Source: Candidatus Avelusimicrobium aviculae (lineage in GTDB: Bacteria; Elusimicrobiota; Elusimicrobia; Elusimicrobiales; Elusimicrobiaceae). From it: a stretch of DNA of 33,127 nucleotides. The position numbers and the translations under genes are program-made. The notes below the pieces were generated by a model, which had not been told where the DNA came from, searched no databases, and saw only the letters and a list, made by a program, of their open reading frames with translations. The DNA lies in assembly GCA_944324655.1 (NCBI GenBank), contig CALUXF010000018.1, positions 1 to 33,127 on the forward strand, read 5' to 3'. This document shows positions 21,647 to 22,449 of the stretch, piece after piece (the stretch's first letter is position 1; the number at the start of each line of letters is the position of its first letter).

Positions 21647-21671
21647 ATAAGTAAAAAGGGAAAATAAAAAA

Positions 21672-21742
21672 GGTGCGGGCGGGAATCGAACCCGCGAATA
21701 TGAGTTTTGCAGACTCACGCCTTACCACTTGGCCACCGCACC
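21672..21742 (-). tRNA. tRNA-Cys (GCA)
   Basis: 71 bases on the minus strand. The acceptor arm GGTGCGG pairs with CCGCACC, the T arm contains GGGTTCGATTCCC, and the anticodon loop CTGCAAA gives GCA. No CCA is encoded. It is oriented against the tRNA-Gly/Thr/tuf cluster. Confidence 0.95.
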
Positions 21743-21840
21743 GTATACATCAAAAATTTTGAACATAACTATTATATCAAAAAAAATACCGTCTGCAAAT
21801 AATTTTATCACAAGGTTAATGCGACCGGTAAAATTGGGTC

Positions 21841-21868
21841 TTGAAATTTTGAATAAGGTTTTTATAAT
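21841..21868 (+). promoter_or_regulatory. Promoter of candidate small RNA 1
   Basis: TTGAAA (21841-21846) and TATAAT (21863-21868) are separated by 16 bases, the best -35/-10 pair in the window. The predicted start is near 21875, with no open reading frame following. Confidence 0.65.
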
Positions 21869-21874
21869 AGCAGT

Positions 21875-21981
21875 ATGGGAGTGCCAAACCAGACCCGTTT
21901 TTGGGTGAGCCTCTTGTAGGGGAAACGGCCTCCCTATTTTTATTTTATTAGCGGACGCGTTATGGGCGCGTCCGCTTTTTT
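21875..21981 (+). ncRNA. Candidate small RNA 1 with three-way junction
   Basis: About 107 bases between a good promoter and a strong terminator, with no coding potential. By hand it folds as a three-way junction: GGGAG (21877-21881) with CTCCC (21930-21934), GCC (21883-21885) with GGC (21927-21929), hairpin ACCC/GGGT (21893-21896, 21903-21906) and hairpin CCTC/GGGG (21910-21913, 21919-21922). The terminator stem is GCGGACGCG/CGCGTCCGC (21951-21959, 21967-21975) plus six T. It lacks the SRP, RNase P and tmRNA signature sequences, and I do not recognise a family. A free-standing riboswitch-like or regulatory RNA is possible. Confidence 0.5.
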
Positions 21982-22043
21982 GCGTATAAAAGCGCGGCAG
22001 CGAGCCTTTTTCTTAACCAGGGCATGCGGCAGGCTTCATTATT

Positions 22044-22143
22044 TGGTACAATAAAAGCAGTAATAAAAGCGGATGGAACGGATCCGTCCCGCACAGGCAG
22101 CGGTTTCAGAACCAGGGAAATCTTCCTTTGGGAGTTTTTTTTT
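22044..22143 (+). ncRNA. Candidate small RNA 2 (promoter to terminator)
   Basis: An extended -10 box TGG-TACAAT (22044-22052) predicts a start near 22059. The transcript would contain a hairpin GGA-ACGGATCCGT-CC and end at a terminator-like stem CCAGGGAA with TTCCTTTGG (22112-22131, one bulge) followed by nine T (22135-22143). It is about 80 bases, non-coding, and has no recognised family. It may instead be only a long leader of the tRNA operon, though the tRNA-Gly has its own -10 box just after. Confidence 0.3.
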
Positions 22144-22151
22144 GGTATAAT
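22143..22151 (+). promoter_or_regulatory. Extended -10 promoter of the tRNA-Gly/Thr/tuf operon
   Basis: TGG-TATAAT ends 16 bases before tRNA-Gly. It is the consensus form of the extended -10 element seen elsewhere in this window. The -35 region is poor. Confidence 0.6.
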
Positions 22152-22167
22152 AAAGTGCTGTCTTATT

Positions 22168-22238
22168 GCGGGCGTAGTTCAATGGTAGAACACTAGCCTT
22201 CCAAGCTTGATACGTGGGTTCGATTCCCATCGCCCGCT
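22168..22238 (+). tRNA. tRNA-Gly (TCC)
   Basis: 71 bases. The acceptor GCGGGCG pairs with CGCCCGC, the T arm holds GGGTTCGATTCCC, and the loop CTTCCAA gives anticodon TCC. No CCA is encoded. The order Gly-Thr-tuf recalls the glyT-thrT-tufB arrangement of other bacteria. Confidence 0.95.
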
Positions 22239-22263
22239 TTTTAATCCCAAGTAAAGGGAATTT

Positions 22264-22336
22264 GCTGGGGTAGCTCAGTCGGTAGAGCATTTCCATGGTA
22301 AGGAAAAGGTCGTGGGTTCGATTCCCACTCCCAGCT
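22264..22336 (+). tRNA. tRNA-Thr (GGT), copy 1
   Basis: 73 bases. The acceptor GCTGGGG pairs with CTCCCAGC-type 3' bases, the anticodon stem TTTCC/GGAAA encloses ATGGTAA, giving GGT. No CCA is encoded. Confidence 0.95.
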
Positions 22337-22376
22337 TGTTTTGAAATCATTAGTTAGGACCCGGCAGTATTACTAT

Positions 22377-22449
22377 GCTGGGGTAGCTCAGTCGGTAGAG
22401 CATTTCCATGGTAAGGAAAAGGTCGTGGGTTCGATTCCCACTCCCAGCT
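22377..22449 (+). tRNA. tRNA-Thr (GGT), copy 2
   Basis: Identical over all 73 bases to the copy 41 bases upstream, while the spacers around them differ. This indicates recent duplication or gene conversion. It is followed 59 bases later by tuf. Confidence 0.95.

Follow-up and report, generated by a model that had tools for sequence, protein, structure and literature searches.

The question raised by this locus was what occupies a gene-free gap beside the tRNA genes in a stretch of 33,127 nucleotides, here called the window. The window belongs to the family Elusimicrobiaceae (Elusimicrobiota), and its relatives come from the gut and rumen. The gap covers 425 bases (21743-22167) and is bounded by a tRNA-Cys gene on the minus strand and by an operon in the order tRNA-Gly, two tRNA-Thr, tuf. 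An earlier note placed a candidate new small RNA in it, with a clear promoter, a junction folded by hand and a strong terminator. The gap was indeed free of genes: it contained no tRNA and no plus-strand reading frame of at least 60 aa in a program-made list, and the sole frame of that length reaching into it was on the minus strand (22039-22350) and overlapped the tRNAs. The promoter, three-way junction, U-rich tract and terminator followed one another at 21841-21981. The features were as follows.

21671-21742, minus strand: tRNA-Cys(GCA), divergent neighbour, outside the RNA
21834-21844, plus strand: upstream promoter element TTGGGTCTTGA (consensus TWRGGYCTTGA), overlapping the -35 box
21841-21868, plus strand: sigma-70 type promoter, TTGAAA-16-TATAAT
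21875, plus strand: predicted transcription start, 7 bases past the -10 box and 2 bases 5' of P1
21877-21934, plus strand: three-way junction RNA body, 58 bases, from RNA folding and homologues
21877-21885, plus strand: P1 5' strand, GGGAG(U bulge)GCC, pairing with 21927-21934
21893-21906, plus strand: P2 hairpin, ACCC-GUUUUU-GGGU, with a U-rich loop, from RNA folding and covariation
21910-21922, plus strand: P3 hairpin, CCUC-UUGUA-GGGG, from RNA folding and covariation
21927-21934, plus strand: P1 3' strand, GGCCUCCC, from the covariation alignment
21935-21947, plus strand: U-rich tract directly 3' of P1, a possible first termination or processing site
21950-21981, plus strand: intrinsic terminator, hairpin 21950-21976 and U tail to 21981
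22168-22238, plus strand: tRNA-Gly, first gene 3' of the gap
22264-22336 and 22377-22449: two tRNA-Thr(GGT) genes, in tandem before tuf

The two tRNA-Thr(GGT) genes scored identically in Rfam, and a single tRNA-Thr was visible in the stretch examined for several diverged relatives. Two promoter-like TATAAT boxes lay at 22040-22165, the second preceded by a small hairpin, and this arrangement recurred at similar positions in relatives, which suggests tandem promoters for the tRNA-tuf operon.

Promoter and Transcript Ends

The promoter was confirmed with 11 of 12 consensus positions matched, and it was the top of 8 matches (shuffles yield 6.5). The promoters of the homologues were conserved as CTTGA ... 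TATAC/TATAG/TATAA, and the upstream element was almost invariant in front of them. In the source genome (1.62 Mb, 53 contigs), TWRGGYCTTGA had 3 exact sites, the same number as the reversed control pattern (2 + 1); a shared promoter regulon was therefore not supported. A second TTAGGTCTTGA promoter-like site in this genome (contig C4, position 60386) was followed by a leader of about 190 bases and then by ATG, and no Rfam match to this leader reached the gathering score.

The two letters before P1 were conserved as TA, with T in 54 of 55 rows and A in 50 of the 52 rows that carry a letter. Hence, the predicted start of transcription was placed two bases before the helix. The same position bears on the reading of the element as a short peptide gene, in which an ATG at 21875-21877 opens 14 codons (ATGGGAGTGCC...), continuing to a TAG in the window. 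However, an ATG is possible in at most 18 of 55 rows (those with T before the first G of P1), single-base insertions and deletions shift the frame, and the ATG coincides with the predicted transcription start, so that no room is left for a ribosome-binding site. A peptide gene is scarcely credible.

The strong terminator described in the earlier note held in the window, where the hairpin contained 12 pairs and was followed by the U tail. The terminator sequence was not conserved among the homologues. At least five T residues were found within 10 bases after P1 in 56 of 57 homologues, whereas a canonical terminator, defined as a hairpin with an energy of -8 kcal/mol or lower and T residues after it, no more than 75 bases downstream, was found in 43 of 57. 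Hence, the length of the main RNA may be about 68 nt (21875-21942) instead of about 107 nt; its end may lie directly after the junction, with the hairpin terminator as a backup.

Three-Way Junction and Covariation

The closing stem with two inner hairpins that had been folded by hand was also predicted by RNA folding. In the junction alone (69 nt), the folding energy was not exceptional (z -1.32; 23 of 200 shuffles equally stable). The whole unit gave a z value of -3.69, and 0 of 200 shuffles were as stable, with the terminator contributing most. These single-sequence statistics are not decisive for the junction; its support beyond chance comes from conservation and covariation. The minimum-energy structure was a three-way junction in 46 of 48 distinct sequences; under a stricter rule, in which the closing pair spans at least 40, the junction appeared in 45 of 48 sequences versus 298 of 2400 dinucleotide shuffles (12%). 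The P3 loop was GUAAA or GUUAA in other members.

Covarying pairs in homologues, the check proposed in the earlier note, were found. The strongest count comes from A5, an alignment fitted to the model (57 sequences, 55 distinct), in which double-sided compensatory changes occurred in 11 of 17 modelled pairs, in all three helices and in 43 cells. This number of pairs was equalled by 0 of 500 shuffles. Moreover, in a sliding test of A5 the best values occurred at slide 0, and shifted partners weakened every measure. The changes affected 5 of 8 pairs in P1, 2 of 4 in P2 and 4 of 5 modelled pairs in P3, with 95, 88 and 82% of the cells paired, respectively; the outer modelled pair of P3 formed in fewer than half of the A5 rows. 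The signal was weaker on A4, the sequence-only alignment, where 4 of 17 pairs were double-changed and 14 of 500 shuffles reached the same value; the covariation score of A4 was above all 500 shuffles. On reading this alignment, P2 was seen to be shifted by one column in one clade.

A tree-aware null model was also applied (400 simulations). The summed G was 215.7 compared with a mean of 50.0 (sd 23.1, maximum 135.4). The double-changed cells (43 versus a mean of 14.1, maximum 51) and the summed fraction paired (15.23 versus 14.37, sd 0.64, maximum 15.83) were not above every simulation.

Homologues and Their Distribution

Blastn gave homologue matches in 9 other genomes of the 61 searched, one of them false; the match at G018:C9 was to the terminator region inside another sequence and was rejected as a homologue. 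This short reach made a covariance model necessary. The first model (9 sequences) had matches in 50 genus genomes at E ≤ 0.1, and the model R2 (48 sequences) had matches in 57 of 66, with best E values from 7.8e-29 to 3.6e-9. A search with one DNA pattern of the element gave 18 matching contigs, which were Elusimicrobiota MAGs or labelled 'uncultured bacterium', one from roe deer rumen.

The element was without a match in 9 of the 66 genus genomes (G005, G012, G014, G017, G020, G026, G063, G066 and G085), and tRNA-Cys itself was detected in only two of these nine. In G020 the contig breaks off on the 5' side of tRNA-Cys. G017 has the region but not the element, so that a genuine absence, relocation or strong divergence has occurred at least once.

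Ten hits outside the genus (L061-L065 and L114-L118) were read as inverted repeats, GC-rich terminators or coding-like sequence, and two extra places within it (L119 and L120) were rejected on the same reading; the promoter and the tRNA-Cys context were missing from all of them. The out-of-genus hits judged false are those examined, which included only part of the weakest hits. One true diverged copy (L127; 17.2 bits) was present in one genome of a second genus. It escaped the strict genome search and came to light only when tRNA-Cys loci were scanned with the filters off. Its promoter, GGGCCTTGACA...TTATACT (TATACT), had the same placement, divergent from tRNA-Cys, and its fold had the same shape, in which a closing stem of 11 pairs carries two inner hairpins. 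Among the remaining 12 tRNA-Cys loci outside the genus, no match was convincing (best 13.1 bits, at L124).

Neighbouring Genes

The neighbours were compared at 58 loci (57 in the genus and L127). The tRNA-Cys gene was the divergent upstream neighbour in 53 of them, at 90-170 bases from the modelled element. A co-oriented tRNA-Gly lay downstream in 39 of 58 loci, all among those with tRNA-Cys upstream, as in the window. This arrangement, together with the riboswitch-like order of a junction and then a terminator, speaks for a cis-acting leader (riboswitch or attenuator) of the tRNA-Gly-Thr-Thr-tuf operon, with the hairpin at 21950 as its terminator. However, the element was oriented away from tRNA-Gly in four loci (L029, L033, L035 and L089), tRNA-Gly-Thr lay beyond tRNA-Cys, on its other side, in three (L088, L090 and L127), other co-oriented reading frames stood just downstream in four (L038, L042, L043 and L045), and a convergent frame followed in one (L048). 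Furthermore, promoter-like TATAAT boxes belonging to the tRNA genes themselves lie downstream of the element. A constant co-oriented downstream gene was thus not found across the 58 loci, and the leader reading is largely refuted and very improbable. Because the promoter and junction were kept while the neighbours varied, the element is best read as a separate gene; a leader does not account for this pattern.

At one further locus (L037), no upstream tRNA was seen in the stretch and tRNA-Cys lay downstream. The reading frames after the element in L038, L042, L043 and L045 had an FTLIE-type N-terminus and were pilin-like by eye only; similar frames were seen upstream of tRNA-Cys in L122 and L134.

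Comparison With Known RNA Families

The earlier note had asked for an Rfam search, and no known family matched the element at the gathering score, either in the window or at 20 other loci; the whole window and the further loci yielded only tRNAs above threshold. Chance-level matches to suhB, EF3314_EF3315 and anti-hemB (E 0.34-0.44) were seen at the element in one of the 20 loci scanned (L052). The best sub-threshold match was BjrC1505 (RF02356), an alphaproteobacterial sRNA, with 23.8 bits and an E value of 0.018. It is likewise a small RNA from an intergenic region, and it too has hairpins and a terminator, but a good part of the agreement came from the terminator, the phylum is different and the family was not matched at the element in the 20 other loci. 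Membership was rejected, given a gathering score of 50 bits.

Three-way-junction riboswitch aptamers are known for purine, TPP and other ligands. The element resembles them in having a compact junction, about 60 nt long, with a terminator hairpin after it, but it has no Rfam riboswitch match and no constant downstream gene, and its covarying helices are not accompanied by a large conserved core. Bacterial sRNAs that do not depend on Hfq and carry a promoter and terminator of their own are a known general kind. The element is similarly free-standing, with its own promoter and a U-tract end, and is intergenic between tRNA genes; it differs in having a conserved multi-helix junction and no conserved exposed seed, and in its unrelated lineage and sequence.

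It was also considered whether the element is a cryptic housekeeping RNA, namely SRP RNA, 6S, tmRNA or RNase P RNA. SRP RNA (RF00169 and RF01854, E ≤ 0.001) and 6S RNA (RF00013) were not found in the source genome, and a phylum-wide search under strict filters (334 Elusimicrobiota genomes, E 0.01) gave no match to the small bacterial SRP RNA (RF00169), which speaks for this reading. The lack of matches across the phylum points to loss or strong divergence; one published report describes few SRP protein homologs for Elusimicrobiota (PMC7987157). However, cmscan gave none of the four families at the element at E ≤ 10 or at the 20 other loci at E ≤ 0.5, in agreement with the earlier statement that their hallmarks were missing. 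No match to RF00013 and no long hairpin with a central bubble, as in 6S, was present; the element folds as a three-way junction and has no GNRA-capped SRP helix. Its length also falls short of that of RNase P RNA, tmRNA or 6S. Moreover, SRP RNA was undetected phylum-wide, whereas the element occurred in one genus and in one genome of a second genus only. The chance that it is one of these RNAs is slight.

Among the papers listed in a literature search, no title or abstract describes an sRNA from Elusimicrobiota. The proposal of a candidate new small RNA was supported by the lack of an Rfam family and by the covarying pairs in homologues; judged from sequence, the element represents an sRNA family of gut Elusimicrobiaceae that is new and absent from every catalogue searched.

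Mode of Action

The region 21841-21981 is very probably a real and independent structured RNA gene, as far as sequence comparison can tell. At the level of sequence it has its own promoter and terminator, is untranslated and has a conserved structure with compensatory changes, with the weaker signal on A4 noted above. Transcription of the small RNA would start at its own sigma-70 promoter, in the direction opposite to tRNA-Cys, and would end either in the U tract (about 68 nt) or at the hairpin terminator (about 107 nt).

A search for Hfq (PF17209) gave no match in any of the 66 genus genomes, with controls positive in 5 of 14, and a diverged chaperone may have been missed; the signature of an Hfq-dependent sRNA was thus not found. 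The paired columns had a mean information content of 1.49 bits versus 0.86 bits for the unpaired columns. No conserved unpaired run longer than about 3 bases was present in the alignment, and the only near-constant unpaired letters within the junction were A21886, the U-rich P2 loop and two letters of the P3 loop.

These data bear on whether the RNA is a trans-acting antisense sRNA, in which the C-rich 3' strand of P1 (GGCCUCCC, then U) would open and pair with Shine-Dalgarno regions without Hfq. The C-rich sRNAs of Firmicutes are a model for such pairing, and Hfq-free sRNAs of the C-rich antisense type are known. In addition, among all paired parts the GGGA/UCCC of P1 varies least, the most frequent pair occupying 52-54 of 55 rows. 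However, changes on both strands of P1 keep the pairs and lose the CUCCC motif in L047, L054, L086, L088 and L127, and a conserved unpaired seed is lacking. An antisense role is rather unlikely, and recognition of the shape by a protein is favoured over it.

Protein binding is preferred because Hfq was not detected, no seed is conserved and the helices are kept better than the sequence, which makes a shape-recognised protein-binding RNA the likeliest kind. Judged by this conservation pattern by itself, protein binding is a tentative proposal at somewhat less than even odds. The RNA would act through its three-dimensional shape without Hfq, more likely by binding a protein as a decoy or scaffold than by an exposed antisense seed. 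A further reading, in which the RNA scaffolds a ribonucleoprotein specific to this lineage, as an analogue but not a homologue of 6S or SRP RNA, in a genus where Hfq escaped detection, as did 6S and SRP RNA in the source genome, is improbable. The reading as a whole, a free-standing structured RNA gene for which protein binding is the foremost option, is given a probability of roughly 0.6.

Most genomes of this gut genus, in which Hfq is not detectable, retain the covariation-supported RNA gene at nearly the same place. It offers transcriptomics and pull-down work a defined target, and its alignment can seed a new Rfam entry.
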